From Serendipita indica DSM 11827 (taxonomy: Eukaryota; Basidiomycota; Agaricomycetes; Sebacinales; Serendipitaceae), in assembly GCA_910890315.1 (NCBI GenBank), contig CAJVGD010000005.1, forward strand, positions 248,001 through 312,000: a DNA stretch of 64,000 nucleotides, in the 5' to 3' direction. Under the pieces are notes generated by a model. That model saw only the letters and a list, made by a program, of their open reading frames with translations, was not told the origin of the DNA and searched no databases. Positions 2,306-64,000 of the stretch are shown piece by piece (the first letter of the stretch is position 1; each line of letters starts with the position of its first letter). Position numbers and translations under genes: made by a program.

Positions 2306-2682
2306 CGCTCGTCTCGAAAAGGCCATTTCTGTAAAGTACCTTGTGAATAGCTACGAAAAGACATGGTAGAGAAAAGACATGACAGCGACAGAAAACACAA
2401 AAAATCTTTTGGCTGGACAAAAAGCCATGTACACGATTCCCAATTTGTCAGAGGCGAAAACGGAGTTTTGGAATGACAAGTCCGCAGAGAATCTTCGACA
2501 ACGATACTCTAGATAGATGCTAGTATATAGGCAGGTAAATATGGAGAAAGGCGGGGGAGGGGCGCCTCGCGTGCACTCGCACGGAGCCCATGCACCAAGG
2601 AAAAGGATTCGTGCTCTACAAAGGCTCTTTGTAGAAAAAGAGTGATACCATGATGGGAAAAGAGGGAAAAGGGGGGGATACA

Positions 2683-5600: not shown

Positions 5601-5717
5601 CTGCGAAGGTTGTGGTGGACCTCCAGGAGCGGTGGGCTGAACCATGCCGCCGTTGACTGGGAGCAGCTGGTTTGGATTTCCAAGTCCCTGTGCAGTTGCT
5701 TGTCTCCCATTCATCAT
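2683..5717 (-). CDS. LIM-binding-domain transcriptional co-regulator (LDB/SEUSS/Mfg1/PtaB-like)
   Basis: This is a nuclear adaptor. In yeasts and Aspergillus, relatives (Mfg1, PtaB) work with Flo8/SomA-type factors in filamentation and adhesion. The first third (5717-4130) is Pro/Gln/Gly/Met-rich low complexity. The central LIM-binding domain starts about 4030 with MRLLQFSKAIN and continues through YWPRLLADHFTEDASLRI, LPYGLLIRFFTTLSQSEIYR and MHYSNGYIIELVGQL, then PYMVKIEEMIFDSAYSSKYI at about 3490-3440. The C-terminal tail (3159-2683) is Ser/Ala/Lys-rich and ends in a basic stretch (RVTRKPSRGM), likely nuclear-localising. Introns are seen near 5056-5010, 4890-4850, 4095-4040, 3950-3910, 3790-3745 and 3190-3160. 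The tandem ATG at 5717/5714 is the only sensible start. Near 4190 the best continuation (NIQMLPPEVSTITEMNF, then a gtgagc donor) is out of frame with the upstream Pro-rich exon, so there is a missed splice or a single-base error. Family assignment rests on the domain blocks and their order. Confidence 0.82.
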
Positions 5718-6126
5718 TGTTTTTTCGACTCTTCAGCCGTCGTCCAGCGTTGCGCGTGGTCCAACCTCTTTCCTCTGCTCGTTTTTCTCAAAAGGGGCAC
5801 GTGCTGGTCACTCTACGCTGTTTTTTGGAAACAATCAGCGTCTCTGCAGGTGCTCTCCAACGCTGCCCTTGCCCGCCGTGCTCAACTCGTCGTTGACACG
5901 ATTCAGTCAGCTGCTCGCCGCGGTGTTGTTGACTGGGCCTTGCAGATTAATGGTTCGTCTGGAAAAGGTACAATGGCTCAGCGCAGACACTGGAGCCCTT
6001 CCAGGTGCCCGGAGCAACGATACGGTCGAGATCAACCTTTGGTTATATATGCATATTATTATCAGTGCATAGCTCACAATCACTCTTCCTATCCGTTATC
6101 TATACATACAATCGTCCATGCGATTA
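5718..6126. other. Intergenic, likely promoter of the LIM-binding gene
   Basis: No coding frame of its own is supported. The region is pyrimidine-rich just upstream of the minus-strand ATG at 5717, as in many basidiomycete promoters. Long plus-strand frames that run through it are antisense shadows of the Pro-rich exon. Confidence 0.4.
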
Positions 6127-8014
6127 TCACCGCTTTGTGCTCAGTGGCATCGGCGACGGCATCGTCTCAATGCCTGCAATTCGCCTCGCGAGCGCCTCCA
6201 ATTCATCCACCTCTTCCTCTTCCACAATCGTATCCCCAGTCGGGTTTGCATGGAAGCCCAATCCACCCCCCGGTCGATTTATCCACGCCGCCGACGACCG
6301 GCCTTCTCTCCTCAACACCATGACACGCTCAAACAGCCGTTCTAGCGTCTCCTGGTCCAACGGTATCATCCCCCTCCGAGCTTCGCTCACCAGTTCGGAA
6401 ACGGTCAAATACGATGGTGGGGGCGGACTCCATGCAGGCAACACCTCTTGCTCTGTTGCAACCACAGAAGGCGTCGTCGCCACAGAGGAGGTGACATGTG
6501 TGCTCCGCGACGAATGAGTTCCCGTCGGTCTCGACTCGTACGCGGGAGATGGTGTCGTTGGATTCTCCACCCTCGGCAGCCCAATCGTTCGAAGGGCGAC
6601 GGTCGGAGGATCGACCGACTCTGCAACTGGAGGCTGCATGAAGTTGATATCTTCCTGAGATATAGCCACGCTACTATCTATCGGTGACCGCAGAGGCATT
6701 TCGTCAATCCCGCCGGAGAGCACTGGATTGTGTACGTTAACCCCCTTTGCAAAATTAGAACAGCCCATCGTACCTCCTTTTCGATCCACGTTTCTTGATT
6801 TCTTTCGCTTCTTTTGCCGTTTCCATCGCCAGAATATCAATCCGCTTAGGCCAAACAGCGTGAACAGCGCCCCTATTACGATAACGGTTATATAGAGACC
6901 CCAGGATTTGCCCTTGACGGATGGCGTCGAGTATCTTATTACGTTAGTTTTAGACTTTTAGGGCAATGCGCTTACAAAATGTAATCGAGATCAAACGTCC
7001 CACCAGCAAGCGTGATATTCATTGTGCTCCCTGGCGTGACGGACATTTGACCAGATGACCAGAGTATGGCCTGCACCAAGCTATCGTTGAGATACGACCT
7101 CCGAATTCCGTAATTGTTGAGATAGGTAATCTGGTTGTTTGAAGGAAACGTAATATTCAACGTCGCGCCTTCCCTCGAAAGAGTTCCAAACAGCCTGTGC
7201 AGAATAAGATGCCAGTCTACGCACCCCAGTTTCACTCACCAGAGAGTCGACACGTCTTGCGTAAACGTCAAAGAGACACTTGCGCCAACAACATTTGTAG
7301 ACGCCAAAGTTTGACCATATGCAAACGAAGCATTCCTCGACAGTTTCCAGTCTCCCGTAGAGTAGTTGAGAGCGGTATTGTCCATGATATGCCGATCCAA
7401 CGGTGCCACCGTCGCAGAGATACCGTACATATTCGGGGCTATGTAGGTATCACCAGAAGTGCCAATTCTAGATTATAATCATTAAATTTGACATTCGTCG
7501 TGAATGAATCCCGTACGTGAGGCCACCAAACCCAAATACGTCGCTCGCATTCGTGTTGGTATAGGAGAAGTGGATTTGATGGTCTTCATCTGAACCCTGA
7601 ACAAAATATTCGGCCAATCCAGGCTTGAAACTTGACTCTCTCGTATTGCCGGTCCGGTATACGTCGGATAGATTCACGTATTGGTTCCCATTAAACCAGA
7701 GGCCCATATCACCTTCATAAGGCGGCGAAAAGTGAATACTAAAGTTGAAACCTATATGCACACCGAGAGATACATAAGCAGGCCGCCAATATTCAAAAGT
7801 TCCAGTTTGGGCACGCACCACGAAAGAGAAAATAAAACGAGCCGCTGTTCGTAGCGGTCATAATCGTCGGATCAGACGTCGCATTTTTCCATTCTTGATC
7901 GTATTGAAATAGCGAGCTCGTCGCGGGGATAAAGACGCTGGCGGCGAGCGTCGTCTGGACCAGCAAAATCGCCCATATCACCGAAATCCAAGCAAAAACC
8001 GGTCGACCGACCAT
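6127..8014 (-). CDS. Single-pass membrane protein, transmembrane cluster family, PPSY tail (member 1)
   Basis: The start is ATG 8014, followed by a signal sequence (FAWISVIWAILLV...TLAAS). Exon 1 ends in the family's FYFLFRG block, the common first intron site. The first ectodomain (about 7815-7480) contains FSIHFSPP, MGLWFNGNQY and the DEDHQIHFSY block. The second (about 7470-6970) contains DNTALNYSTGDW, VGASVSLTF and the membrane-proximal GGTFDLDYIL block. A single hydrophobic helix (near 6900-6830) is followed by a basic stop-transfer WRWKRQKKRKKSR. The tail contains LPAWSPPPPSYLTVSEL with a PPxY motif, the helix LERLFERVMVLRREG and the family end motif ELEALARRIAGIE. The ectodomain lobes resemble the beta-sandwich repeats common in Agaricomycete membrane proteins of unknown function. 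It is a presumed surface protein; no ligand or enzymatic residues can be named. Confidence 0.75.
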
Positions 8015-8231
8015 CCAGGCATGTAGTGGTCGGGAAAAAGAGTCGAGGGCAACGCGGCACAAGGGTTTCGAGGGTTCATTTGGCTAAAGTCCGTTGCCTT
8101 CTGCGCTGAGAATCGTATCCTGATGTCAATATAGCCTTTCTATAATTACAGAATAAGCATTTAGGACGTTGGAGGATGGACGCTCGTGGCGGTAGCAACA
8201 AAGTGGCAATAACCGTCAAAGTGGCTTGTCA

Positions 8232-9851
8232 TCAAACGAGGTGAGTACAATCTACTATCATAATTCGACCATCTTCGCCTCCCAAAATATGCTTCCAACC
8301 GTACCCAGCTTGGGCCGAAAAGACAAAGTCGTGGGATAAGGGATACAAAAGATCCTCTTTGGTGTCGAACTCCACCGAGAAGACCATGTTATTTAAAGAG
8401 TGCAAATTTGCATAACACCGTCGTTCAGGCCGACGGTTGAGCCAGCGGACATCTGGAGGAGTCGTGCATTGCTGACCACTGGGTATCTCCCATACATGAT
8501 CACTCCAGTACACGTACTGACCAGCTTCATCCGTGGACATGAATGCCAAGGGTGATTTTAAATTCATGGGCAGTGTCCCCTCACACAGGAGCCGTGCCGG
8601 CGAGGAGTCTGGAGCCTCCAAATCGAGATCATATACCCGCATAGCAAAGTTGTAAAGCTCTCCCAGAACGATCCACCATGGATGACCAGGGACGCCGTCC
8701 AGAACGTGAATCCCAATGGCCTTGATTTCGGGAATCTTTCGTTGAACGTGGACTCGAGTATGCCGGTTCCACATATGGATCGCGTATGGCTCCTCGAGAG
8801 CTAGGATAATGCTATCGTTGGCAGAGGATATTTGGACTTTGCGCAGCTTGCCCTCGCAGAGCTGAACTGGGTCCAGCACCAGTTCACCCATCGTCACGTC
8901 CCATATGCACAACCGTCCGTCCTCAGAGACACTGGCTGATCTTTCCATCGTTTGAAAACGCGATCGATGTGACTGGTAGGACGTGCCCAGGGCCAGCTAC
9001 GGGCTGAGGCGAAGGATGCGGATCCTGGATGAGGATCGTCCCCTTTGAATGCCCAGACACTATTCTTTTGCCATCTGGGGTGAACAAAACGACCGAAACA
9101 GATCCCTCTCGTCCTATCAGCGGGCTTTCGTGGATCAATCCAGCTTCTCGATCCCAGACATAGAGAAGCGAATTGCCAAACACCACGGTCGCATCGTCTG
9201 GGGAGATGCAGATTGCAGACGCCGGGGATATTGGTTGAGATTTAGATACAAGCTCTCCAGCCTCCCAGTTCCAAACATAAATAGCGTCTGCGGCAGAAAC
9301 CAGAGTGCTTGACATTGTGGAGAATGCCATGCATGTAATATTAGTGTTGAGGGCATGGCAAAGAATCCGTGTTGGGTTATCAGAACTCTCGAAAGGGATT
9401 CGCCATATATGAATAGCCTTGTCTTGAACAACGGCGAGATTGTTAGAGTCGGGAGTATATTGAAAGCCTCCTTGCCTCAATGGATGCTGAAGTATCAGCG
9501 TCGAGCCAGCTCCGGGCCCAGTCTCGATATCAAGGCAACGGATGACCGACGGCAAGCCCTCCTTGTAAATAGCAAGCTTGAGCCCACATGGGGAAATGAG
9601 CATAGAGGTGAGATCCATGATCTCATATGTCCAACCGAGATATTGATACGTTCTCAGATCCCAGAGGAGTACAGCATTGAAGGTGTCTGCGATGTCTACC
9701 TCTATCACTGAAATGAGAGTTTTGCCATCCGATGAGCAACCTATCCCAAAGACTTGCCTATGCTCTGGATCTGGGTATGTATTGATGATCTCCGGGTCTG
9801 TTATTCCCGGTATATGAATCTTCCCAAGTGTGTCCTTCTTCAGCCTAGTTA
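8232..9851 (-). pseudogene. NACHT-WD40 STAND gene, 3' segment (WD repeats), cut off by the KDZ transposon
   Basis: These are degenerate WD40 repeats, for example AVLLWDLRTYQYLGW, AIHIWRIPFE, AIYVWNWEAGELV, LLYVWDREAGLIHESPL, VSGHSKGTILIQD and RLCIWDVTMGELV. The segment joins the NACHT segment at 22950-25704 on the far side of the transposon. The deduced junction is in frame if one TA dinucleotide is counted once (ATG GTA ACT AGG). Near 8945 the frame changes by one base in the middle of a WD repeat (FSNDGK then ASVSEDGRLCIWD), a second lesion or an assembly error. WD40 arrays of such proteins act as the sensor end of fungal STAND (HET-like) proteins. The gene cannot give its full product in this allele. 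The minus-strand frame starting at 10014 is the transposon end read through and is not a gene start. Confidence 0.8.
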
Positions 9852-11700
9852 GCCGTCGATAAGTAAATTTGCTTATTTGCGCTAGGAAAAAAACTGCAAA
9901 TTTACGCTCATAGAGGTGTCTGTCACGAGCGCTTGATGGATTAAACGTTTTGAATATAAAGGCTAATAATATATGTGAAATCGTTTTCACCTCAAGCACG
10001 GATGAAGAACCCACAATAGATGGTGACTGAGGCTGAATCCGTCGCGTAATTCACCATGATGGAGAAACCGCAAACTGGATACTGGGTTTCGGATTTCTCT
10101 GTATTTCACACGCACCCTGTCCGTCAGTCTCGCCTTCCCCATCTTGGTACTACTTCCTAGGCAGGCTTAGCGGGGACTTTCAGCGCTCGACCAGAGTTAA
10201 GGATTTTGTCCATACTTCGTGATGAGCTCTGTCATGAAATTTAGGCGCTTAGCGCATCTATCATCACTAGAAGACGTGAAATTTACCGTCTGCTACAACT
10301 CTGTATTGATATGGGAACCTCTGTCATTTAGAATTTAGGTGCCTAGCCCGTCAATTTCATCCGGCGGCATAGACTCTATTGTCTATCATTCCGGGATTGC
10401 CGTGTGGGATGCTTCATCACGAAGAATTCAGGTGCTCGGCTCATCTGTCATCGTTCAGAGACCAGAATTCACCGTCCGTCATACTCAACAATGTTGTGCG
10501 GTGATGCTCTGTCACCAAGAATTTAGCCTTTGGACCATCCGTCATCACAAAATAACGTAGAATATGCTATCCTGTCATACTCAGTGTCGCTGTGTGAGAA
10601 TCTCTGTCATGATAAACTGAGCCATCTCGCTCGTCTGTCATGGTTCGGAGACCCGGTTTGCCGTCTGTCATACTTGGTACTGTCGTGCCGCAGCACTCTA
10701 TTATGAAGAGTTTTGGCCCATCAGTTATCGCGAAATGATGTAGAATCTACCATCCCATCATATTTGGTATCGCCTATGTTAGAGTCTCCGTCATGATAAA
10801 TTTGGGCATCTCGCTCATCTGCCATGGTTCGGAGACCCAGAATTCGCTATCTGTCATACTCAGTATTGTTGTACGGCAATGCTCTGTCACAAATAATTTA
10901 GGCTTTTGGCCCATCTGTCATTACAAAACGACATAGAATATATTATCCCATCATACTCAGTGCCGCTGTCTCTGTCATGATAAATTTTGGGCATCTCGCT
11001 CATCTGTCATGGTTTGGAGACCCAGATTCGCCGTCTGTCATACTCGGTACTGTCGAGCGGCAACACTGTATCATGAAGAATTAGGGTTTTTGGCACATCT
11101 GTTATCGCGAAATGATGTAGAATCCATCATCTCGTCATTCTCAGTGCCGCTTTCTCCGTCATGATAAATTTGGGCATCTTGCTCATCTGTCATGGTTCGG
11201 AGACCCACGATTCGCCGTCTGTTATTCTCAGTCCTGTCGTGCGGCAACACTCTGTCACGAAGAATTTAGGCTTTTAGCCCTCTGTCATCACGAAACGACA
11301 TAGAATCTATCATCCCATCATATTCAGTGCCGCTTTCTGTCATGATAGATTTGGGCATCTCGCTCATCTGTCATGGTTCGGAGACCCAGAATTTGCCGTC
11401 AATCATACTCGGTACTGTCGAGCGGCAACACTGTATCATGAAGAATTAGGGTTTTTGGCGCATCTTTTATCGCGAAATGATGTAGAATCCATCATCCCGT
11501 CGTACTCAGTGCCGCTTTCTCCGTCATGATAAATTTGGGCATCTCGCTCATCTGTCATAGTTCGGACGCCCACAATTCGCCGTCTATCATTCTCAATCCT
11601 GTCGTGCGGTAACACTCTGTCACGAAGAATTTAGGCTTCTAGCCCTCTGTCATCGCAAAACGTTGTAGAACCTACCATCTGTCATGCTATGTGGGACCTC
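9852..11700 (+). repeat. Left terminal inverted repeat of the KDZ element
   Basis: The outer ~600 bp (9852-10450) is unique sequence and the rest is a tandem array. The outer ~1.44 kb mirrors 21510-22949 closely. The inner edge (about 11640-11700, ending CCATCTGTCATGCTATGTGG) also matches the inner edge of the right arm. The left arm is therefore longer only because it has two extra array units. Confidence 0.88.
10430..11640 (+). repeat. Tandem ~185-bp subterminal repeats, 7 units
   Basis: The landmark TGGTTCGGAGACCC (with small variants) recurs at 10451, 10641, 10825, 11010, 11193, 11374 and 11558, spaced 181-190 bp. Each unit also contains several copies of the short word CTGTCAT and of GTCATGATAAATTTGGGCAT. 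Arrays of subterminal words are typical transposase-binding regions, so that role is inferred. Confidence 0.88.
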
Positions 11701-12968
11701 TGTCGCAAAGAATTTAGGCTCCCAGTTTGTCTGTCATCTGCAAACAAGACATAATTCACGAGCTTTCATTTCAAGCTCCGTTATATGAAACCCTCTGTCA
11801 TTACAAATTCAGGTATTTCTCCCGTTGGCTATTACTTAGCAATGCGAATCACCTCAGACGAACAATCACCGTCACATAAGATTCATATCAAGATTTCCGT
11901 ACAGCAATATGATCAGTAAGAGCCATTATATGAGTTCTAGATAAATTACGCTTATTCCCATGCTCGGAACACACACTCTTTCTACAGTCAAGTAGAATAT
12001 GATGTATTGTAAGAATCTGAATATATGAGGAATATCATTTACAGTCCTAGTGGGGACCAACCGACAAAGTTGAGGGATATTACTTATTCCTTCCTAAGTC
12101 TCAAATCATATCTTGTATTCAATCCAATCCTTCCTTTATATATACCTCATGTTAGACATGCTCTTATGCTTTTACTCTCAAGGCATGCAACAGGAGAAAC
12201 CATGGCAGCCATAGCCCTCCAGCTCAAATTATAATGAATGCTCAAGAAAGCACAATAATCAAGTCATTAACCCGTCAAACAGTTAAAATGCTAGGTATTG
12301 CGCAATTTCCGCTTTCCATTGGTAGCTACGTTGGCTGTAAGGATAGGGGCCTATCCATAGAGAACGTGTCACCGCACAATCTCTGACGTCTTTCTATCTA
12401 GTCTATTTGAATGAATCCGGAGCAGCCTTATGAAATTTGACCCATGTCGGTGACTTGCATACTCAGGACGCTCCGCATTCTTTGCAAAAATCGGGCATCT
12501 AATGCCAGGGTTTCATATTAGGACTCAGGGCCGCGCTCAGGTCTCGAACACACAAGCTTGCGGAGTCACCAATTCCGGTGGCTGACCTTGTACATCATGG
12601 ACAATCTACAAAGATTTACTGTTTGTGAGCGAAACGTGGCGGAGCAAGTTACATAAGGGTGATAATTTTGCTTTCTCGGGTCTTAAGAGGTACAAGATAC
12701 ATTGACACATGGCATGAGGAGTGTGTCGAACAATCACGGAGGTTATGAATCCTCAGCCGTTGCTAAAATATTTAAGGAGAACAATCGGTGATAGACAGTC
12801 TCCCTTTCCAGAATGTCTGCTTTCGATCCAAGCTACCATGCTGCCCACGTCAGCGTCCAATGTCCTTAGCTGGTCCAAATGCATACTTTGAACCATACAA
12901 CGGCGCAACTAGTGTCTCCAATCAGGTCATAATAAGGCGTTAGATGGGCTAATCTAACATGTTCATAG
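11701..12968. other. Non-coding part of the KDZ element
   Basis: No protein-like frame is seen. The region is AT-richer than its surroundings and has no obvious repeat. It may be the leader of the accessory gene that starts at 12969 or decayed cargo. Confidence 0.4.
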
Positions 12969-15197
12969 ATGTTCCAAGCAGGTGATCACCAAGCGGTCCA
13001 TGCTCAGGCCCACGGCGTCGGTGGGTTTCCAACTTGGAGCCCACCTTTATATTCCACGCAATCATATATTCCACTCGAAGGGCCTCTCCTCACAATGGCA
13101 TCTGGGCAACAAAACAATACGGTTCCCTCGTCCTCCTTGGATCCTGCTTCTCGCACCTCGTTGCCAGCTCCACAACATCAGCATGACCCGACGGCTTTGT
13201 CTGACACCTCTCTGATCCGGGCTTCAGCAATACCGTCAAATATCCCAACTCCCTCATCCGCATCGCATCCTGTGGGCAGCACGGCTCAACCACCTCAACC
13301 GGGTCAGGCCAGCACAACATCCACCTCTTCTGAAGCGGTTCCCAATGCGCTTAACACTTCTCCGGAATCAAGCACTGTCGCGCAGTACCTCGCCGATTTA
13401 CAAAGGTCTGCGGACTCTCTCATTCCCGTACGGCCGGATGTCACTCGAAACAAGAATAAGTTCGCACCAAATAAGCGCAATCCCGAGAAGTTCTGGACCA
13501 ACTTCTTTTCAGCGACAATTCCCGTAAATTGCGCACGTGGTGACCAGGCCTGAGTCAAAGCAAGCTGCAAAGGATCTCATCATGCACCGTCTGGCAACAA
13601 AAACGTGTTTTGACCTGGACAAAGACCAAGCGCTGGTGTGGGAGGAGTTCGTGGACTTCTTCAACCAATGCGAGCAGAATTTCGAGTTAATTCCTCTTAA
13701 GTACGTACATAATTACACTAAGTCTGTAAAAGCGGAACTAACTGTGTACTTAGTGCCCGGAAGGAGCTTGTCGCAGCAAGCTTTACGTCAATTATTGGAG
13801 ATGCGTATGCTGCTTTCAAGTTCCCTGCATTGTCAGTTGTGGTTATTCCTGGTGACCCTAACAATGCACCCGAACAAGGATGTGAGTTTGCCTTAGATGT
13901 CAGCCCTGTCATTGATTCCCAGTAGATTCAACATTGCGCCTCCAGAGAACAAACTATCCCCTTTAGCATGGCTTGCACATGAGCGCCCCAACGTCGCTGC
14001 AGGGTTTCGGGCAGGAATGCAAGCCTATGCGCACTACTTCTTTGACAGTATAGGTATGGAACACTTACATAATCGGACATTGGATCACTTTCAGCTCAAC
14101 ATTGGACAGCCCCTGATCACTCGACCACCCTGGCCTTGCCAACCGCACAAGCCGAGACAACCTCTGAGTCGACCGCAGACCAAAGCGACAATCAGAACAA
14201 GAATAAACGTCGGCTAAAGTCACCAGATATATACAAAGTTCCACTTCTGGGCGAGCGTGATGGAATACGGCTCTGGGCACTTGATGATAATGTCTATGCA
14301 TGACGGTCGTAGTGTCCTATCTGCTGCAATTCAGGACCGCTACTGTAAGTTCAATTGACTTTCTTTATATTATCTGGCTAACATCTTGACAGTGCGTGCA
14401 GGACATGATGAATCGAAATGGGGTTGGAAGTATATCATGGCAAATATGGACAATCTGTGCTATCCAGATGTCATACCCGTCGTAACGGCAGAAAATAAGC
14501 CCACCACCCGAGCTACGCTTCCTGGCGATGTCAACTGGAACAAAGATCACCTCAATGCGTGGATTGGACTCATACAGTCTCATCAAAAGGACAATCAGCT
14601 GGGCAAGGGCATGCTTTTCAAACCTACTCCGAAGGCAAAGGCAATTGCTGCGTTCTCTCCAGGTATGTCTCAACTGGGTCGGAAAACAAGCTTAAATTGA
14701 TAGTTTTGTACAGAGTTGCTCCCTTCAGAGGACTCAAGAACCGTCACAAATGCCAGGCTAGTGCTCACTAACAGTCCAGATGAGAACGATTCGGTCCCTG
14801 CCTTTGGTGGTACCCAAAACGTCAACATTGGGCAGTTAGGTATGAAAAATAAACTATAACCTTGATACAGGACCAGTCTGACAATGCTGCGTCTACAGGG
14901 GTCAGTAATGCTCAAACGCACTCACTGGCACCAGTGCCAGGGTTGCCATCAGCAGCTTCACCTCTGACAATTGAACCTGATCAAAGGCCATTGCCAGCAC
15001 CAGCAACCACGCCCGCAGCTGCAAACGTCATGGTTGACAAGCCCAGGACCGAGGTACCTTATGAGCAGCTCACCCCCGCCCAAAAACGCAAAAGAACACG
15101 TGCACTCAATCTTGCAAAACAAGCGGCTCAGACCGAGGTAAGTGCAGCACCTGAGGTGACATTGCGGCCTCGGAAGCGAGCCAAGAGGGGTGACTAG
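12969..15197 (+). CDS. Unrecognised accessory gene of the KDZ element (family copy 1)
   Basis: A Ser/Pro/Thr/Gln-rich N-terminal stretch (12969-13430) is followed by a globular region with blocks RNKNKFAPNKRNPEKFW, LIMHRLATKTCFDL with WEEFVDFF, DAYAAFKFPALSVVVIPGDP and SRFNIAPPENKLSPLAWL. Next comes DHLNAWIGLIQSHQKDNQLG, then GMLFKPTPKAKAIAAFSPG (14570-14660). The C-terminus is Lys/Arg-rich (LTPAQKRKRTRALNLAKQAA, then RPRKRAKRGD), which looks like a nuclear or nucleic-acid-binding tail. Introns are clear at 13699-13751, 14345-14392 and 14662-14713. Frames change without a good intron near 13540 and 13893, so this copy may be decayed. The same blocks in the same order occur at 61714-63998 on the other strand. 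I do not recognise the family. Its place in the transposon suggests a mobilisation or passenger role, but that is inference. Confidence 0.65.
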
Positions 15198-15384
15198 GTC
15201 GCTACCAATTCACTCATGATGATATGCTTTGTCTTATTGTGAATAAATTACCCTCTCTTGCTATTTGACATGTTCTAAGCGATCTATATTGTGGATAAAA
15301 CAGACATGAGCCAGTATCAGCAGTCTCTATCTCAGCAAACGAACTTCAGTCCCTCAGTACCCTCTTACTAATGGAAACCGTGAA

Positions 15385-17040
15385 TGCTTGCTGAGGCCTA
15401 AAGGATTAACGGAGGACTGAAGAAGGAGGAGGCGAGCAGGGAAAGGACACTAACAGATGTCAAACTTATAACGGCAAGGAAGTAACTGAGGTTTGGACCC
15501 TGTTACTTCGTCATGTATATTTTAGTAGATTATTGGGGTTTATATACGTGTAGAGAGCCCCAGACGAAACGCAGAAGGATGGGAACGGACAGTAAGATAA
15601 GAGCAAGAGATGAGACAGAGCAGAGCTGCTGCACTTGGGAGTGTAAGAGACTAATGAGATTGTAAGAGACTAGCTAAGTAATCCCAAGAGTCCCTGCTTG
15701 GCTCGTGCCACAAGGCGTGAGGGCGTTACACTAAGACCACACCAGGTAAAGGCATGAACCTCCCTCAACTTCAGAACCAGGAACTTTGCTTCTTCTTTGT
15801 TGATAAACCCAAGATTGGGTATGAAATACCAACAAAAAAGCGTCATTTTCCAACCCGGAGTCCACATCAACAGAATTTCAATCTGAATAAACCCGGATGA
15901 TGCATGAACCGGGTCACAAAATGGACCTAAAATGTCGATAATTAGCTATGGGAGCGTCTTCAGACCGTCTGAGTGTTGACAAAGGCTACAAACCCTCGGG
16001 TGGCTAGGAGCAGTTTGAACATTGAAGCAGCGCAGAATGATGGCATTGGCAAACGCAAAGTCGCATGTTTGGAAATGTTTGAGATTGCCCAATTTGGCCA
16101 CAGATGATCATGGCTCCACCACCTGAAGGTTGCGAAGGAGTGAAGGAAGCACGCTTGAGAAGCACAAAAGGTGAATCATGGATGAGAATACGTTCAAGAT
16201 GAGCAATATTGTCGACAAGAGTCCATTCACTGATATCAAGAGGGACGGTTATACAACAGAAGGCGAATGAACATATGCGGCCTCTTCTTTGTCAACGAGT
16301 CAACCACGTGAAATTAGATACAATCAGGGAGCCAAGTAACAGGGTGATAGGCTTGTGCATGAAGAGGACACACTGACGAGCATGACGCCGACAGCACGAA
16401 ATTCAGTGCCCACATGAAGATGTTAGCGATGACACTTACATCTTTCTGGTGAGCGGAGTCCCAAGCAGAGTCACATTATGTCCTATTCGCATCTATTCAG
16501 ATTGTTTCCTCAATGTGAGGGTGCTTAATTAAGGGAATCTGAGGCGTAAACTGGACGAGGGGATTGGATACAAGAGAATGTTACATGGAAAACAGGGCAC
16601 TTTATTCGTTTTGGGAACCGTCTAAGAGTCATTCCAGGGCTTTTGGTTGCGCAGTGACATAAATGAACCGTTGCTAAACAATACTCTAACGCCCTCGCGC
16701 CTGGTGGCACGAGCCCAGTGGGAGCTCTCGGGATTAGTTAGCTAGTCTCTGACTCTCTTACTAGTCTCTTACACTCTCAAAGCGGCGCAGCAGCTCCGCT
16801 CTGTCTCATCTCCAGCTCCTACTCTTCGTTCCCATCCTTCCGCGTTTCGTCTGGCGCTCTCGCGCGTATATAACCCTCCATAATCTACCTATGCCGTACA
16901 TAAAGAAGTACCAGAGTCCGAATTCCAGCTGTTTCCTCACCGTTCTAAGTTCAACCCCCGTTAGCGTCTTGCTTCCCCGCTCGCCTCCATTTTCTTCTTC
17001 CAGTCTTCCGTTACTCCTCTACGCCTCAAGAAGCTTTCTT
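15385..17040. mobile_element. LTR-retrotransposon fossil, probably gypsy-type: two LTR-like copies in opposite orientation
   Basis: A ~330-350 bp sequence at about 15385-15735 returns as its reverse complement at about 16685-17040. Each contains a TATA-like tatata stretch, and each begins on its own strand near CTAACGCCCTC/GTAACGCCCTC. Directly beside the left copy (about 15740-15870, minus strand) is a short piece resembling the start of gypsy-type pol (GFINKEEAKFLVLKLREVHA). This is broken debris nested in the KDZ element and therefore younger than the element's assembly. The middle (15870-16680) has no clear coding content. An alternative is the inverted ends of a small non-autonomous DNA element. 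Confidence 0.5.
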
Positions 17041-17148
17041 GGTTTTCAATACGAGGCGAGCTGAGAGGAACTTATTCTGGTGGGTTTCGCATTATAAAAT
17101 CTAGCGATAATTCCAATAAACTAAGTATTCGACATAAAGTCAGTTCAT

Positions 17149-20100
17149 TTAGACCTGAATGACCGTGATTTCGTCAGCCAAACGGCGGTAAATACTGGAC
17201 ATGGCATATGCATGTGCCCTCTCGCCCTGTTTCTCTGAGTTTAAAGCCCTTTGAAGCCACTCTTCACATCTAAATTCGAAAGTTTTGTGAGTGTATGTAA
17301 TCTCGGCATGAGTGAGCTCAAGCTCTTCACTCCATCGGTCGTGACTTGCTTTGGCCTCCAGATATCGTACGCGAAGCACTATACATAAAGTGAGCTCTAA
17401 GGAAGAATCTAAGTGGGGTTTGAATACTTTCGTCAAGCCAGTTATCATCATTTGCGTGCGTCCCCACCGCAGTCCGACGCCAGATCCACGAGATGTTGAC
17501 ATTGAAGCCACGCCCAAGTTCTTGAGTGTATCGGAACACGTTAGCAGCAGATACATCTGCTGGTAGGAGTGGTTTAAGCTCAGGATTCCGAGCACCACCT
17601 AGAACTTCCAGCGCAGCAAAGGTAGCACGATACCGGCCCGTATTAAAGTTAATGTCTCGACGAACGCGCTCTATCAGTGATCTGGAGCGTAAGTTCGCGT
17701 CATATCCGTGCTGATGGCGATCCCTGTCACGTAAAAGTGCGATCTCCTCTGCAAGTCCAGTGCGGAGAGCGCGTAAATAGTCAAACGCTTGCGCTTCTCG
17801 TAGCTCCTTCTCAACCTGTCGAGGAATTGCAAGTTGTTCGTTCGGAGGGAGCGTTGAAGGGATGGGAAGCTTCCATTGCTCAGGGAGCGCGGGATCATCC
17901 TCCTCATCTTCCTCGTCATGTATATCTAGCGGAGTACGCGCTTTCCAGTCGTTGATCCTGTCGGCTAATGCGACACGTTTCTGGTTGAGCTCAATGCGCT
18001 GCCGCTCTGTTGTGATCGATTGTGAATGTATCTCTAGCCTCTTCCTGTCGACATTCAGTATCGAAAGAGCATATAATTACCTAACGTACTGATATTCCTC
18101 CAAATCGAGGCCGTCATTCACCCAAAAAGCCAGTGCTGGATAACCATCTGCATTCTCGAGGGCCAGGGGTGGTAGCAGAGCATCAAAACGTGTAAGTTTC
18201 TGAATTATTTCAGCACGGGTGGGAGCTGAAGACGGTTAGACTTGCACATTAGATTGCAAAACAGGCACAAACCTTGGTCTGCTAGTGTCTGATATATAGA
18301 TCGACCTTCCTGGTCTATATTGTAATGATCTTCAAGCTCAGACCATTCCTTCGAGATATTTAGTCCAAACGTCAGGAAAACCTGAGAACGTACTGCAGCC
18401 CTTGCCTCTCCAATACTCGCCCGCAGATCGGCAAGCAATGTTTGGTGCTGAATTAGCATTTCCCGGGTATTTTGTAACCTCTTTGAGAGTGTAGCACCTA
18501 GCCGTGCTCAATTGGCTAGACTTGGCACACTAACACCGTGACCTGCTCACCCATTTTACATGTCTTCCGCCAGTTCCAATAGTTCAAGTGGAAATTGAGG
18601 GTATCCATTCTTCCTCCAGGCGTCATGCGAGATGTGCTTCCTGATAAGTGATTAAGGGCACTCCACAGTCTTTCGATGGCTTCCCCATCTGTACGCCCGA
18701 CCTTCTTGCAGTAGTTGAGTGAATATCGATAACGGCATTCTTCCTTGTGAGCTGGAAGGTGAAATTTGGGCACCAGGAAGATGATTCGAAGATGTGGTGG
18801 GAGGCGTAAGAAGGCGGCAAGGTTGTTGAAGCGAGTCTGGAAGTTCCGACGATACTGACATGCAATATCGTAGGTTAATACCAGGTCCTTGATACCACTC
18901 ATCCTGTGGATGATCTGGGAAATTGCAAAGTCTGAATTAAAATACCTATACGACTTATTAGGAATCATCATTGCGAACAATAATTGCCTGACCGTTCCCC
19001 TTTTTGGAGGTCGACGAAGGATTGAGGAATTGCACTCATGTCGGCATACACCGCCAGCAAGGCCAGTAACCTCAAGTCTATTGAATCGACTTCGAGATGA
19101 GTTGACAGTAGCCCGGTAATTTGAACAGTCCGATGGCTAAACAAATGATGTAAGAGTCTCAATTGCTACTGGGAACAACTTACCTCTTGTCGAGAGCCAT
19201 TTCCAGATGCAAGATAGTCACTATATTGAACCGGATTTGCAAAGAAACCGCCGTCCGACCACAGCACTCTGTCAAGTGGACTGCGACTGTCATGCTTGAG
19301 CAAAGTCAGCCGAAAATTGGCGTCAAAGTGTACGTAACGTCGGACGAGCCAGCTGATATAACTTGTCGTGAGTGAGAAGCCTTGGAGGTTCGTGATTTCA
19401 CATACTGTCTATCATTTGGCATGGTTTCAGCCCAATTCTCCAAAATATTTACTCCCGGTTGAGGGCATGCAGGACATTCCAGACATCTGATCAAGGGGTA
19501 GACTGTGTTCTGACTTGTTTCATAGGAGCCACTATCTCGCTGTGCAACTAGATAACTCCACTGCCGTGAGATGCGCCGGAATTCTCGAACGCGGTCCTGG
19601 TAAGGTTGTCAGTCATGAATATTATATGACACGAGGGCAACACACTGGTATATTACTCAACCCTTCAAGGTCTGTCAGGCGATAAAGAGACTCGAGATAA
19701 GAGTTGGCACTTCCTTTGCTCTCTAAATTGAGGATACGGAAGTGTTCAAGAAGGTCGAAAGTGAAGGCCGTTTTGGGGTTCTGAATCGAAGCGGAGAACA
19801 TCCTCGACTTGAACAGCTGCAAGTCTGGTGTGGTTGAGGAGTCGCAACCACAGAGGGAAACTGAGAGAGCGTGGAAACCATCAATGTGGAGCACCAACAG
19901 CTTTCGAGCTCCTGCTGGCATTGGGCATGGGTAGCCATGATGACCAAGCTGCACGACGAGGCCAAGGTCTGAGAGCGATGATCCTTGCAAATGTGTTCCA
20001 TTCCATCGCTTAATCTTGTGAAAAGGTGTTTGAAGATGTGATATGACGATACATTGTGAACAGCGAGGTGTTGTAAAGCAATTGGTACACATGAAGAGTC

Positions 20101-20497
20101 CCTTTTCCCCGGAGTTGCATGCGCATGGGATAGGACCATATGGAAGCGACTCAAGCTCAAGGAGGGCAGAGAGGTACAACCCCGAGCAATTAATCCATTC
20201 ATCCAGAAAGTCGTGTTGGGTCTGCAAGTTCAACTTGAGCAAGCATGGATCAGAGATGAAACATACCTTGCTTCTCCTGGTTGCTTGGAGAGGTTCGAAT
20301 GGCTGTAACTTGGCACTCTCCTGGGGGATTACTGGCTCCCATGGTATGTAGTCATCAGACGGAGCTGGATCCCAACTCGTCACGTAATTTTCTGTATTTC
20401 GTTTCCTTTTCTTGGGTTGGCGAACTTGCACATTGCTGATAGAGACGCTAGCAGAAGTAGATATCTGTTCAACTGCAGGGCGTATCCGCTTTCCCAT
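17149..20497 (-). CDS. KDZ transposase with CxC2 cysteine-cluster domain
   Basis: Starts at ATG 20497. The N-terminal third (20497-19600) carries the CxC2 cluster: CACNSGEKGLFMCTNC, then RCSQCIVISHLQTPFHKIKRW and LGLVVQLGHHGYPCP. CLECPACPQPGVN follows at about 19465-19505. The core contains HFDANFRLTLL (first acidic catalytic region, about 19300), the landmark YDIACQYRRNFQTRFN, then FLVPKFHLPAHKEECRYR, and GRTDGEAIERLWSALN with MTPGGRMD (18900-18590). A long helical C-terminal part rich in Glu/Arg ends at 17149. Introns have ordinary GT-AG ends (e.g. 19645-19597). It catalyses cut-and-paste movement of the surrounding element through its mirrored ends. One oddity is that the conserved VDLQKGER block at about 19010 lies in a different frame from the sequence on both sides, so this copy may be impaired or mis-sequenced. 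Family assignment is firm. Confidence 0.9.
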
Positions 20498-20607
20498 TCT
20501 TGTGTCGATGTTGGGTCCAAAATATTTGTGTTGTTGTTTCTCCCTCAGCGTGAAAGCCTGTACATCAGTACAAATTGGTGGCCATCAACCGTGACAGAGA
20601 TAACTTC

Positions 20608-21409
20608 TCAAATGTGCCGCAATATTTCATTGATTAGAAGAGGTGCATTTCCCTGTATTAGCTAGTCTATTAAAGTGAATCTAGCACATTTCCTACATCC
20701 CTGCGGTCTGCCGCATCCCAATCTTTTAGTGCGTCCCATTTGGGCTCCATGATGGGGTCGGGTTCACATTGATACTCCTTCAATGCAAAGTGATTCCCTT
20801 CAGAGACGTTGAACTCGCTGAGGGCAGTGGATCCTGCTTGATATTGTGCCCGTGCATGTTCCTTAAGCATTGTATTTACTTGACCATCAAGGTTGAAGCG
20901 TCGAGCTGAAAGGATAAGTGCAACTTTATCCTCGAAACTTGAGTTTTCCATCTGTTCTACCCATGTCTCTGGCTCCCCAAGGTACTTGTAATTGGTAACA
21001 TGACGTCGAATGCATCTCATCCTCCCCTGAGCTGCTGTCTCCATGCAATACATGCGTGCAGTCTCTATGGCATCTCTCCAAATTCGATGCTCAACAGCCT
21101 GAAGTGATGCCTTGAGCCTCTGTGCCGCCTCATCCGGGACATCGACATAGAGGCTGTGAAAATGGGCATAAACGAGCTCCCATTTGTGTCCAGCCAATAC
21201 AAGTTTCCAGAACGCATAGATCTCTGTATGAGCAGCCAAGAATTTGATGAGCGAAAATTATTGCTTCAAGCGTCCACCAAACCTTTATTATGAGTATTGT
21301 TGAGATATGAGAAGAATTTGCTATCGTTAAAGATCCGAAAGCCATTCCACATGACCGAGGTACTGTCAGACTGAGGATTTTGCTCATTGGAGGAACTCCG
21401 CATGTCCAT
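20608..21409 (-). CDS. Unrecognised small gene of the KDZ element
   Basis: A protein of about 230 residues is read from ATG 21409 (MDMRSSSNEQNPQSDS), with an intron near 21296-21232 and the main exon 21231-20712. A short last exon, NAPLLINEILRHI, stops at 20608. The body is charged and probably helical (DVPDEAAQRLKASLQAVEHR, then ETARMYCMETAAQGRMRCIR). No known motif was recognised. It lies between the transposase start (20497) and the right terminal repeat, on the same strand as the transposase. It could be transposon-encoded (DNA binding or regulation) or captured host sequence. Confidence 0.55.
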
Positions 21410-21474
21410 AGTTGTTGAGGAAGAGGGGAAGTGGTGACATTGACCGAAGCTTCCACATGATATCAATGAGGATG

Positions 21475-22949
21475 ACAGACCATAGGTTCCGCGACGTTTT
21501 GCGACGACAGAGGACTAAAAGCCTAAATTCTTCGTGACAGAGTGTTGCCGCACGACAGGACTGAGAATAACAGACGGCGAATCGTGGGTCTCCGAACCAT
21601 GACAGATGAGCAAGATGCCCAAATTTATCATGACGGAGAAAGCGGCACTGAGAATGACGAGATGATGGATTCTACATCATTTCGCGATAACAGATGTGCC
21701 AAAAACCCTAATTCTTCATGATACAGTGTTGCCGCTCGACAGTACCGAGTATGACAGACGGCGAATTCTGGGTCTCCAAACCATGACAGATGAGCGAGAT
21801 GCCCAAAATTTATCATGACAGAGACAGCAGCACTGAGTATGATGGGATAATATATTCTATGTCGTTTTGTAATGACAGATGGGCCAAAAGCCTAAATTAT
21901 TTGTGACAGAGCATTGCCGTACAACAATACTGAGTATGACAGATAGCGAATTCTGGGTCTCCGAACCATGGCAGATGAGCGAGATGCCCAAATTTATCAT
22001 GACGGAGACTCTAACATAGGCGATACCAAATATGATGGGATGGTAGATTCTACATCATTTCGCGATAACTGATGGGCCAAAACTCTTCATAATAGAGTGC
22101 TGCGGCACGACAGTACCAAGTATGACAGACGGCAAATTCCGGGTCTCCGAACCATGACAGACGAGCGAGATGGCTCAGTTTATCATGACAGAGATTCTCA
22201 CACAGCGACACTGAGTATGACAGGATAGCATATTCTACGTTATTTTGTGATGACGGATGGTCCAAAGGCTAAATTCTTGGTGACAGAGCATCACCGCACA
22301 ACATTGTTGAGTATGACGGACGGTGAATTCTGGGTCTCTGAACGATGACAGATGAGCCGAGCACCTGAATTCTTCGTGACGAAGCATCCCACACGGCAAT
22401 CCCGGAATGATAGACAATAGAGTCTATGCCGCCGGATGAAATTGACGGGCTAGGCACCTAAATTCTAAATGACAGAGGTTCCCATATCAATACAGAGTTG
22501 TAGCAGACGGTAAATTTCACGTCTTCTAGTGATGATAGATGCGCTAAGCGCCTAAATTTCATGACAGAGCTCATCACGAAGTATGGACAAAATCCCTTAA
22601 CTCTGGTCGAGCGCTGAAAGTCCCCGCTAAGCCTGCCTAGGAAGTAGTACCAAGATGGGGAAGGCGTTGAGACTGACGGACAGGGGTGCGTGTGAAATAC
22701 AGAGAAATCCGAAACCCAGTATCCAGTTTGCGGTTTCTCCATCATGGTGAATTACGCGACGGATTCAGCCTCAGTCACCATCTATTGTGGGTTCTTCATC
22801 CGTGCTTGAGGTGAAAATGATTTCACATATATTATTAGCCTTTATATTCAAAACGTTTAATCCATCAAGCGCTCGTGACAGACACCTCTATGAGCGTAAA
22901 TTTGCAGTTTTTTTCCTAGCGCAAATAAGCAAATTTACTTATCGACGGC
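21475..22949 (-). repeat. Right terminal inverted repeat of the KDZ element, 5 tandem units
   Basis: This is the reverse complement of the left arm. The same landmark (as CCGAACCATGACAGATGAG) is found near 21592, 21775, 21961, 22147 and 22338, giving five ~185-bp units against seven on the left. The outer ~600 bp up to 22949 is the mirrored unique end. Confidence 0.88.
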
Positions 22950-25704
22950 TACCATAGGTGCCTTCTTGGTCATCGTTCCGAGGAGGCCACCAGTGCTAAT
23001 ATCCCAAACGTAGATGTTCCCGTCGTTGGCGCAAGATACAAGTCTCGTCCCGTCGTGACCGAATAAGATATTCGAGACTCTTCCCTTGTGCATCCGAAGT
23101 CGCTTGTATGATCCACTCGGTGGAGCAGTATCGAGGACAACTCTGGGCAATGTCGCCGCCTTTGGTTTTTGGTATTGTTCGCAAATGAAGCCACTATCGG
23201 CGACAAATGCGAGACACGACCGGTGAATCTCCTCGGTAGAGTGGACCAAAACAGATTGATTTCGTATTATGAAGCTGTGTATCTCCTGGCACCGTTGCAG
23301 ATCGACCTGACGCTTCAGACGGGTCAGAAAATTGATAGAACAAGACCTTTGACTGCCTTACCAGAGATGTACGTTTCATTTTGAGATTCCGTTCGATGGC
23401 ACTATGCAGCTCCGTGAGGGCTTTAAGGATCCAAGGAATGTTGGAGACGGTAATAGCAACTTCGATCCACTCTAGTAACTTCTCCTCGAACAGATGACGC
23501 ATGTCGTCGAGGACATGCTGCAGGTGGAGAAACTCCATTGAGTGGAAGATCCAAAATGACGCCGCATACGCGATACCATTCAATATATCGGATCGCTGCT
23601 GTGGATCTACGTCCCAATCTCTGGCGATACCTTGTCTGAGGTTCTGTAGAAGCAAGCGAAGGCAGCCTGCTCCCAGCCTGGCGTGAAGGGTCCTAGAACT
23701 GACTGCGTAATGTTGCGAACGTTTCCTATCAAGAAGGAACTCGCGAAAGGTCGGGTGAAGGAAGTATACAGTTCCATCTTGAGAACTGACGCGGAGGACA
23801 CTTGCAAGTCGACTGACAATCTGCTCGACTGGTGTGGTTTGGTTCGCTTCCGGCAAGAGAACCACGAGCTGGTGCACCGAGATGGGAACTGGTGCGATGA
23901 TGATGGCACCGAGAACTAGTCTGACGTTGGAGAGAGTCGTCGCTCTCTCGTCTTGTAAAGCTCGATTCAGGACCTCGAGATACAAAGTATCCAGGGAGCT
24001 TCGAGCGCTCGGTGCGAGTATTGCATCGAGATGTCCCAGACGATCCAAACTTTTCTCGAGCGACGCACAAGCTGTCGCAGCAAAGATGAAGAGACCTTCC
24101 GAGCGTCGGATGAGCTGCCCCTCGTGCTCAGAGGTGAGCTGCACGCCACGACGATTGATCTTGGCTACCCGCTCATGAATAAACTTGCTGATATCCTCCA
24201 TATATACGTGTCCCCCCGACCGCATATCGCCAAACTTGATTCCACAATCCTCTTCCAAGGCGGCCTTGATGTCCTCCTCGAGACGCGTCGTGATGAAGAG
24301 TTTGAAGTTGGGTAGCTTGGTCGAATCCTTGCCGAATGTGTCGATCAGGCACGAGAGAAGATACTCTCTCGTCGATGTTTGGCATTCGTCGAGCGCATCA
24401 ATGACAACGATGCCCTCTTGCTTCAAGGTCGAGAGTGGTGTGACAACAAGACGGTCCCACTGCTCAGCGACGGAGAAAGTGGCGATGGTATGCAAATGAT
24501 TAATGACATCTCCCAAATTCTCTTTGAGCTCTGGATATTCAAGCCATAGGACCCTTGCAACATGTAGGCAGAGATCACTGGCGGTGGAGGTGGCAGCGTT
24601 TCCCTTCGAGAAAAAGAACCGCACAACAGCTAGTCTATTCTCGTTCCACTGGGTGGCCAGTTCGTTTGCTAGTGTGGATTTGCCTACGCCTGCGTTATCT
24701 CCGAGACAATAGATGCGATAACCAGTCTCCTTGCTTTGCCGCCATGTATGGACCTCGTCGATGACAGCCACTCGAGTACCAGGGAGACAGCGTCGATGTT
24801 GAACGCCATGAGGTGAAACCGTATCTCTCTCTGAGAGCCGTTAATTAGATATTGTTGTTAGTCTCCACGTACGCAGAAGGGATTCAAGTTTGACGTCGAT
24901 ATGACTCAGAGTGTTGTTCACTTCTTGGGATTTAAATGCTGTGAAGAGCGAAAGAGCAAGCTGAAAAACTCGTCAGTATTGGTCTTCTATTATCTAGCAC
25001 ACTCACCGTGACCTCGTTCATTGCATCGTCCAACCGGATGGCAAAGGCATTGATGCTCTCCACGTCGAGTTCCGCTGTCATAGTCTTCTTGAAAAGGGTC
25101 CTGATCTTCACCTTTTCGTTCTTTGATGTAATAGAACCTACACGCTCCTCGTCTGATACTGCGGTGAGGATATCATACAATTCCCTTTAATACACAGTTT
25201 AGGCGACTACTTGGGGTAAATTGGGAGGTACGTACCCGCAGTACAGCCGTATAGGGACAAAAAGCGGCGACTCCACCTCTTCCGATTCCCCTTCGTCGAA
25301 CTGAGCCAGTTGTCGCTCAAAGGTATCCAGATGGTGCTTCGCTCGCATGCCGACATCTGTCCATGCTAACTGATTCCGCTTGATCGTCTTATTGATTGAA
25401 GTTTGTGTCAAGCTACAACACAATTTGTTCAATCGAGTTGACGCACCTTGGCTCTTTCGAGAAGTGTTAGAAGGCCGCTGCAAATGGCTTTGAGAGGTGA
25501 CAATAAATCACTCCCTTCACTTGCGTCTTTTATAATCTTCAGAGACGTAATTGCTCCTTCGATCCGGACGAGCCAGTCTTGCGCCGAATCGCCCGCAGAT
25601 GTGTCGTCTCCACTTAGATTGCTCGTTCGAGGCGATATGATCCCGTCTTTCACAAAATGTGAATATTTTCTCTTTTCCTTCTTGCCGAATATACGCATGG
25701 ACAT
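22950..25704 (-). pseudogene. NACHT-WD40 STAND gene, 5' segment (N-terminal helical domain, NACHT, first WD repeats), interrupted
   Basis: ATG 25704 opens a helical N-terminal domain (25704-24930, several introns) of a type often found before NACHT in Agaricomycetes. From about 24830 the NACHT domain reads CLPGTRVAVIDEVHTWRQ, Walker A GDNAGVGKSTLANEL (about 24690) and Walker B GIVVIDALDEC (about 24400), followed by the NACHT-type FITTRLEEDI and LFIFAATACASLEK blocks. After a winged-helix and helical stretch, the first WD unit (GHDGTRLVSCANDGNIYVWD, about 23060-22990) begins and is cut at 22950 by the KDZ transposon. Relatives are STAND NTPases in fungal self/non-self recognition and cell death (HET-E class). 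The rest of the WD array lies at 8232-9851. Walker residues look intact, so decay followed rather than preceded the insertion. Confidence 0.85.
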
Positions 25705-25826: not shown

Positions 25827-27557
25827 CTATCTGTCCACCGGTGGGATGCCTGCTAGCCTTCGAGCCAAAATCTCCCTCTGATCTAGCTTCTCTCCAGAAC
25901 CAGGATCGAGTCGAAGAGAGCCACGGCTAACCTGTACTCGCAGCTCTCTAGCACGTTCAAAAACCTGGGCCAAGTCCTCATGCGAGAGTTCTACAACCGC
26001 TGGTCCTCCCTCGAAATCTAGGTGAGACGTAGGAGCTTGACTTGCCACGAGATCCTCGAACGGATTATTGAGTCGAAGCTGGATAGGCGTTCCTAGTCCT
26101 CCTGGCAAGTTCGCATCTCGATTGTTGTCTCCAAACGGTGACCGACTACTTGATGGCTCCTGGCTTGCCGATGTCGCCAAGGACTCGGAGCTATGCCGCA
26201 GATTCCATGCAGGGGTAGGTTGCAGCGGCTCCTTGGCATCTCGCGGGATTCTCTCTAACTTGTCAATATCCTCCAAACGGAAGGAGTGTCTAAGCGGTGC
26301 TTCAGACTCCTTGACTTCCGTTCCAATTCGTCTCCGTGTTGGTTTCCGCTTCTTCTTCCTGTATAGGAAGTAGAGTAGTAATCCAAGGAGAAGAAGTCCA
26401 ACGAATGGTACAATGATCCATGCAGTTAAAAGGCTTCGATTTGGGTATGGAGAGCTTGAGTCCGGTCGTGAAGTTGGGGGGTCCAGAATGGCACCTTGAA
26501 CACTATTTGGAAACTTTGAGGATTTCAGATATGGGAGAGGCAAAAGGGTTTACCGAATATAATCTATGCTCATCACGCCTGATAGGAGAGTAAACTTGTA
26601 AGTTCGAGCAAGAGACCAAGGGAGACTGGTTTCGTTAAACCAGGGTGCTCGATACAGTGGATAAGGTCGCCCGTTTCGAGATATATAGTGTTCGTATGAT
26701 CGTATGCTTGTCGTGTTGCTAATGTATTCGGTAACGGTGACGTTGAGATGAGCGTCGTATACTCCTATATCACCGCAGATCCTGACTAGGTGTCAGGCCT
26801 ACCACCGACCAAAAGTTCGATCACAAACCAAATGGCCGATCCCGCAAAAGTGACTTGAAACCAAGAACCACTTTCATACGTAGTAGAGTGGGTGCCACCC
26901 CAACCCAACACCCCAGACGTCCTATGGTCCCAACCCACATCTGAAGAATAGAGCAATTGTGGCGATGCATCATCTATAATGTCTCCGAGAGGGAGTTGTG
27001 TTGCTGTCACTCCATAGAACGCAGGTCTTGGATCCGGTTGGGAGGCATCGACGCTGCCAAACCCAGTCAAAGACAGCCAAAGTTACAAATTCACGTACCT
27101 GAGCTCTACTTGAATAGGTTTCTGTGGCGAGGTTGGCACGCTGAGGAAGAGTTGGTGGTCGTCGAGTGGCAAATCCAGTTGGGCGACGACATAGTCCGAG
27201 GAAGAGCTTGTCGAATCAATATACCATGGAAGTTCAAATGAGATCCCATCCAAGGCAGAATCAAAACTACCCAAAGTTGTAATTTGGGCAGAGGCACGAA
27301 TTTGAAGAAATGTGGCTGAAAATATGTCATTTGACTTCTTTTGACGATGGCCAAAGTGCATGAATACCTCTAAACAAGAGACAGAGTATCATATGTCCGT
27401 CTGTCATTGGCCCTTTGATTCCATTCGCTGTCCCATGCCGCCAATAGCGGTCGACTAGGAAGATTTCTGTTGGATAATCCAGTGCCGTCGTGTTCCTCGG
27501 CATTTCCCTCGCTGCCAGGGAGGAGACATGCCGGTCAACCGCAGGGAAAGAAAGCAT
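25827..27557 (-). CDS. Single-pass membrane protein, transmembrane cluster family (member 2)
   Basis: The first exon runs from about 27557 (MLSFPAVDRHVSSL) to the family block ILCLLFRG at the first intron. Ectodomain 1 (about 27350-27090) contains DDHQLFLSVP and PIQVELRYV. Ectodomain 2 (27060-26800) contains IIDDASPQLLYSSDVGWDH and GSWFQVTFAGSAIW. The next exon (26770-26560) holds GVYDAHLNVTVTEY and the juxtamembrane LLSGVMSIDYIR. The membrane helix WIIVPFVGLLLLGLLLYFLY (about 26430-26370) is followed by RKKKRKPTRRR. The tail has VVELSHEDLAQVFERARELR and ends REILARRLAGIPPVDR. There is no obvious cleavable signal peptide. It starts 123 bp from the NACHT gene's ATG at 25704 and is transcribed in the same direction. 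Function unknown; a surface receptor or adhesion role is inferred from architecture only. Confidence 0.75.
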
Positions 27558-51391: not shown

Positions 51392-52075
51392 CTCTGATGA
51401 CCGCTTTTCTTGATTTTAATTCGGCGTCGGGAAGGGAGGACCAAGGCGATTTATGTTCAAGTTGAGGCAGCGCGGGTCTCAACCGGATAACTTGTCACGG
51501 AGATAAACTTCATGGCTTGAGGATGTTTCAATAAGTGTGGAACCTATCTCCGGCTACCTCCGCCCTTGCTGTGAGAAGCCGATCAATTCATTCGATCCCG
51601 TGCAAACTCTTCACTCAGCCCGATCAGCAACGATACCCTAGAATGACTTTCTCAGGTAAGAAACTCAGTTTGAGTAATGGAAACCACTCACTCCGATGGT
51701 CGGTCGTCATCTGCGCTTTGGCAATCTGGCTTCTCGTAGTCACACTGTGTATAAGCAAGGTACAACGGCTGCAATTACTCTCCCCTCCCACCCTTTACTG
51801 GTTTCTTTTTACTGCCACTGACCGACTCTTCAAGAACCACGCCGAACAGCGGGGGAAATGGGGGCAACGTGCATAGTTCATTCTCAGCATCGAAATCAAC
51901 ACAACTACCAGGAATAAGCAATGGGGCTCGAATGTCTATTGAAAGATGATAGAGTGTGCTCGCGCTGAGGGGAATGTATCCGAGGCGTTATGGGTATGTA
52001 TCGAGTGGCTTTGATACATGTTGATATTCAATTAGTACAGTATAGTATACAGAGTCATATCTGTCCTATTCTCCT

Positions 52076-63998: not shown

Positions 63999-64000
63999 CG

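Follow-up and report, generated by a model that had tools for sequence, protein, structure and literature searches.

A probable Kyakuja-like KDZ transposon in the coding sequence of a NACHT-WD40 gene of Serendipita indica, with 11-bp asymmetric tips, a 7-bp target-site duplication and an apparently flipped interior

The window, by which we mean the whole stretch of 64,000 nucleotides of Serendipita indica DNA that was analysed, contains a gene with a NACHT-type NTPase followed by WD40 repeats, i.e. the fungal NACHT-WD40 (STAND/NLR-like) architecture, split in two by a long mobile element (Table 1). An earlier interpretation made from the letters of the DNA (hereafter the sequence-only reading) had described a KDZ transposon of about 13.1 kb within a NACHT-WD40 gene, and Pfam searches bear out both identifications. 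Inside the element we found the KDZ transposase domain (PF18758: E-value 2.8e-43, 148.6 bits against a cut-off of 26.6) and the CxC2 domain (PF18803: E-value 4.4e-31, 107.7 bits against a cut-off of 27). The host gene exhibits NPHP3_N (E-value 5.7e-21), NACHT (5.9e-10) and WD40 (7.7e-07) upstream of the insertion and WD40 (7.3e-12) downstream of it. We assign the element, judging from its predicted proteins, to the KDZ superfamily. The self/non-self role that the sequence-only reading attributed to the host gene is one that its domain architecture alone would suggest.

The element carries inverted repeats of 1.4 kb, whose alignment with each other (positions 12–1446) comprises 1420 matches, 3 substitutions and 6 gap events, and which contain subterminal repeats spaced about 184 bp apart, likely to be binding sites of the transposase. 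Besides the transposase gene we found a 195-aa open frame and, on the opposite strand, an accessory gene; Pfam searches with the former and with the tested pieces of the latter identified no family above its cut-off. The nested unit between the two genes may be a small non-autonomous transposon. A relative of the accessory gene, itself matching also the KDZ element of another contig (C36), is present at 62231–63847 of the window. The stretch from 62231 to 64000 and on to C5:313327 (window coordinate 65327) is a remnant of a third KDZ lineage, consisting of this accessory-gene relative and the conserved CACCTATGG tip, the latter just outside the window.

Table 1. Coordinates (in the window) of the inserted element, its parts and the two halves of the interrupted gene
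Feature	Position	Strand	Basis and remarks
Whole element	9841–22960	− (strand of the transposase and of the interrupted host gene)	11-bp tips as in the C29 copy; 7-bp direct repeats directly outside in both copies
Left 7-bp repeat CCTTCTT (predicted target-site duplication)	9834–9840		Perfect direct repeat abutting the element
Right 7-bp repeat CCTTCTT (predicted target-site duplication)	22961–22967		Perfect direct repeat abutting the element
Left asymmetric tip CAGCCTAGTTA	9841–9851		Common to the C29 copy; final two bases are the first-read TA
Right asymmetric tip TACCATAGGTG (CACCTATGGTA read inward)	22950–22960		Common to the C29 copy; CACCTATGG recurs at KDZ-element ends on C36, C11 and C19 and at C5:313314
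Left long inverted repeat, with subterminal repeats	9852–11277		Self-comparison; inner boundary approximate
Right long inverted repeat	21515–22949		Self-comparison
KDZ transposase gene, several exons	17149–20584	−	Pfam PF18803 (CxC2 within 19622–20584) and PF18758 (KDZ core within 18516–19136); open frames; blocks conserved in the C36 element
195-aa open frame preceding the transposase, either a gene of its own or the first exons	20670–21257	−	149 aligned aa are 38% identical to the C36 element
Second (accessory) gene, frame-broken as assembled in the window copy	12969–15197	+ (opposite to transposase)	Open frames; also in the C29 copy
Nested unit between the two genes, inverted arms of ~360 bp, 78% identical	15369–17051		C19 carries related sequence close to a KDZ end
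Upstream half of host gene, encoding NPHP3_N/NACHT and the first WD40 repeat; preceding exons would lie past 24840	22968–24840	−	Pfam
Downstream half of host gene, containing WD40 repeats and an additional frame change near 8940	8232–9833	−	Pfam, open frames

The genome assembly that we searched (24.7 Mb in 55 contigs) contains one further full copy of the element at a different place (contig C29, positions 53502–66995, 13,494 bp). The sequence-only reading had correctly noted mirrored ends, of which one begins with GCCGTCGATAAG at 9852 and the other finishes with its complement at 22949, with TA adjoining each; it had taken these positions as the ends to the base and the TA as the duplicated target. 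Outside these GCCGTC ends, the window and C29 copies continue identically for 11 bases on each side (CACCTATGGTA and TAACTAGGCTG, respectively). Directly beyond, each copy is flanked on both sides by a perfect 7-bp repeat of its own: AAGAAGG on the gene strand in the window (CCTTCTT on the forward strand) and AACGCTT in C29. On the basis of the shared tips and the flanking repeats, the full element comprises 13,120 bp and its actual ends lie 11 bases outside the first-read ones on both sides. The TA thus falls inside the element, next to tips that are common to unrelated insertion sites. The search for further copies, proposed in the sequence-only reading, has therefore returned one full copy whose ends differ from those initially read, the kind of observation that the reading itself had named as speaking against its boundaries.

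We scanned outward offsets of 0–30 bases on each side (31 × 31 = 961 pairs) in both the window and the C29 copy, and the pair 11/11 is the sole one with a 7-bp repeat in both; at the first-read ends only TA is common to the flanks of the two copies. Pairs of 7-mers drawn at random from the host flanks were equal in only 2 of 20,000 draws. Because of this unique offset and the rarity of random matches, we conclude that the shared 11 bases belong to the transposon and that the 7-bp repeats are target-site duplications, found in both (2/2) full copies of this family. Taken alone, the ends and the 7-bp duplication appear to us very nearly certain. Both full copies have CA..TG termini (CACC..GGCTG on the gene strand). 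Within the outermost 11 bp the two ends agree at 6 positions and differ at 5, and the long inverted repeats start right inside.

The corrected empty junction, VWDISTGGLLGTMTKK-DTLGKIHIPG, is open in frame. So is the join proposed in the sequence-only reading, in which the element was left out and TA counted once: it reads through as described, but it is not the true junction. It is 27 bp longer than the corrected one, i.e. by nine codons, hence it is in frame by coincidence, and since both junctions are open, the argument from the reading frame cannot tell them apart. The predicted empty site with a single TA has 0 occurrences in the assembly when as many as 3 mismatches are allowed, and searches for the corrected junction and for that of the C29 copy, carried out with the same tolerance, likewise identified no empty allele there.

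The tip pattern CACCTATGGYAGYC occurs at 6 places in the genome (2 for the reversed control), each beside other KDZ-element sequence, and the flanks outside these places differ from place to place, where read. The KDZ element of contig C36, the only other full-size element, possesses inverted repeats of a different sequence and ends in CACCTATGGCAGTC, as do the related ends on C11 and C19; its other tip is, by our reading only, CAGCAGGT. It has no matching 7-bp flanking repeat (GTCGAGG vs ACAGCTA), which we take as the result of a later rearrangement. Contig C36 also contains a 1.4-kb direct duplication, 99% identical (35909–37345 and 50993–52426), of which one copy directly adjoins the KDZ element at its right end and the other terminates ~375 bp left of its left end; this duplication may explain why the target duplication is absent there. 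The sixth place of the tip pattern, C5:313314, is located 1.3 kb past the window, beside the above-mentioned relative of the accessory gene. For the tips on C11, C19 and at C5:313314 we found no partner ends against which a 7-bp repeat could be compared. A match to the inverted-repeat end at C11:194262 (3 mismatches) was dropped as a chance similarity, as the surrounding stretch contains no element end. An exact TACCATAGGTG is present on C13, within a KDZ-transposase-like stretch, and the fetched stretches of the KDZ fragments on C13 and C38 revealed no end-marking inverted repeats or tips.

The genome contains at least 150 matches to NPHP3_N (150 of 258 candidates scored), a model that is not specific to fungal NLR genes, given that in a control it matched in 9 of 14 well-known genomes and exceeded the cut-off in 5. 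The downstream WD40 part used as a query gave at least 420 matches (128 of 732 candidates scored); among the matches listed, none apart from the host gene itself begins before residue 143, and they are thus unable to show an empty site. The upstream half of the host gene has, by our reading, a probable intron near 23361–23307. Around the NACHT-WD40 gene there are related open frames on the reverse strand (6127–6957, 25827–26549, 27756–28265 and 29662–30456), which share a C-terminal stretch, in some cases contain a membrane-like segment, and are arranged like a tandem family; for two of them Pfam returned no family above the cut-off. Among the titles listed when we searched the literature for NLR genes together with insertions of KDZ elements or other transposons, none concerns a KDZ insertion into a fungal NLR gene.

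The window and C29 copies differ by 78 substitutions in 13,524 alignment columns (54 of the 78 are transitions, and about 10 fall at the exchanged tips), and this small number indicates that the insertion is recent. The two copies are not collinear. With the tips aligned directly, positions 600–12526 of the window copy match positions 12703–795 of the C29 copy, i.e. in the reverse direction. The two ends are distinguished by 5 tip positions, and at every one of these the left end of the window copy matches the left end of C29, and the right end the right end. For bases 1447–2000 it is the left-with-right pairing of the window and C29 copies that agrees (546/548 and 551/554), versus 220/492 and 232/534 in the same-side pairings. 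The accessory gene adjoins the CACCTATGG tip in the C29 and C36 copies as well as in those of C11 and C5:313, of which only the accessory side is seen; in the window copy it is the transposase gene, not the accessory gene, that adjoins this tip. The window copy is thus the 1 of 5 orientation-readable copies that would have the turned interior (the C19 end gives no orientation). Homologous recombination between the 1.4-kb inverted repeats would be the simplest and best explanation of this arrangement. We lean towards the more general view that there are two flip isomers of KDZ elements with long inverted repeats, with the tips fixed and the whole coding interior turned, both of them perhaps mobile, and that the window copy represents the rarer isomer. 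Among the papers listed in our search of the literature on flip-flop or isomers and terminal inverted repeats, none described an interior flip for KDZ elements in its title or abstract opening.

The flip was read from the assembly rather than from individual reads, and the inverted interior of the window copy could instead be a misassembly through the near-identical inverted repeats, with the ends and the target duplication just as described above. Two copies this similar, each with long inverted repeats, are hard to assemble, and the small gaps between them (49 in total, 23 of which lie within runs of at least 3 equal bases) swap copies at mid-element: above 16,900, C29 has 20 of them and the window copy 3; below 15,700, C29 has 4 and the window copy 22. 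This switch suggests uneven polishing, such as would arise if only one of the copies had been polished in each half, which would account for the gaps without any misjoin; moreover, repeats of 1.4 kb would be short compared to the long reads that an assembly of so few contigs suggests. On balance we consider a misassembly unlikely. Since the small gaps change sides, the assembly offers no basis for judging whether the genes are intact, and the same pattern makes an assembly indel plausible in the host gene, where, in the stretch 8900–9000, the reading frame shifts near 8940 within a single WD40 motif that leaves no space for an intron. This frame change is either such an error or an older lesion. 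In the latter case the element would have landed in a NACHT-WD40 pseudogene rather than in a working gene, and the insertion would have caused no loss of function, a scenario compatible with the one we prefer. The abundance of NPHP3_N matches, which may render single losses cheap, points in the same direction, but in both halves the remaining frames stay open over long distances, and we regard a host gene broken beforehand as a distinct, if lesser, possibility. The "recent loss by insertion" postulated in the sequence-only reading is accordingly upheld as to its recency and weakened as to the loss.

The boundaries of the sequence-only reading, 9852–22949 with TA duplications, could be retained only if the 22-base surroundings were a preferred target hit in both places. 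The inverted repeats are indeed perfect up to and including the TA, the TA-once join is in frame, and the surroundings are common to both copies. This model, however, offers no account of the perfect 7-bp repeats that flank the shared 11 bases in both copies; CACCTATGG is found at the ends of diverged KDZ copies with different inverted repeats and without TA at that position (CACCTATGGCAGTC); and the supposed element-free target has no occurrence in the genome at up to 3 mismatches. We have thus rejected a target-site specificity of ~22 bp, on account of the 7-bp repeats and of the tip at diverged copies, and find the TA model, already contradicted, hardly credible.

The interpretation that we consider probable is that a recently moved Kyakuja-like KDZ DNA transposon resides in the NACHT-WD40 coding sequence, with 7 bp of target duplicated and the interior flipped between the inverted repeats. 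Its ends are formed by the short asymmetric tips, CACCTATGGTA and CAGCCTAGTTA, behind which lie the long inverted repeats with their subterminal repeats. The transposase would cut at the tips and join them to target cuts staggered 7 bp apart, and the interior would have been turned around by homologous recombination between the inverted repeats, before or after the insertion.

With this analysis the true ends and the target duplication of a fungal KDZ element are fixed, and the case shows that one can be misled by a perfect inverted-repeat boundary as well as by a junction that keeps the reading frame. If annotators cut such elements off at the long inverted repeats, they would discard the 11-bp tips, and these are probably required for cutting. 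The flipped interior, if real, offers a simple test case for whether the tips or the subterminal repeats direct transposition, and flip isomers, if they exist, would mean that tip identity is uncoupled from gene order.

We call the element Kyakuja-like because of its CA..TG termini and 7-bp duplications, both of which PMC12730594 reports for Kyakuja. Kyakuja-1_LB and Kyakuja-2_LB of Laccaria bicolor resemble the window element in their KDZ transposase, 7-bp target duplications and CA..TG termini, whereas they are described as having no TIRs, in contrast to the long inverted repeats that start 11 bp inside the ends of the window element; they also encode a TET/JBP dioxygenase (PMC12730594). Our search for TET/JBP gave no match in the genome, which is weak evidence, as the control also matched nowhere. 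KDZ1, KDZ2 and KDZ3 of Cryptococcus neoformans are mobile KDZ elements of about 9–11 kb which, like the window element, combine a KDZ core with a cysteine cluster, carry TIRs and insert into a gene; they differ in TIRs of 139–241 bp, in target duplications of 8 bp (KDZ1) or 4–8 bp (KDZ2 and KDZ3), and in having CxC1 rather than CxC2 (PMC12810828). Zisupton, and Dileera as represented by Zisupton-1_PGr, belong to the same transposase superfamily, but PMC12730594 gives 8-bp target duplications for them, one base longer than those that flank both full copies of the element described here.
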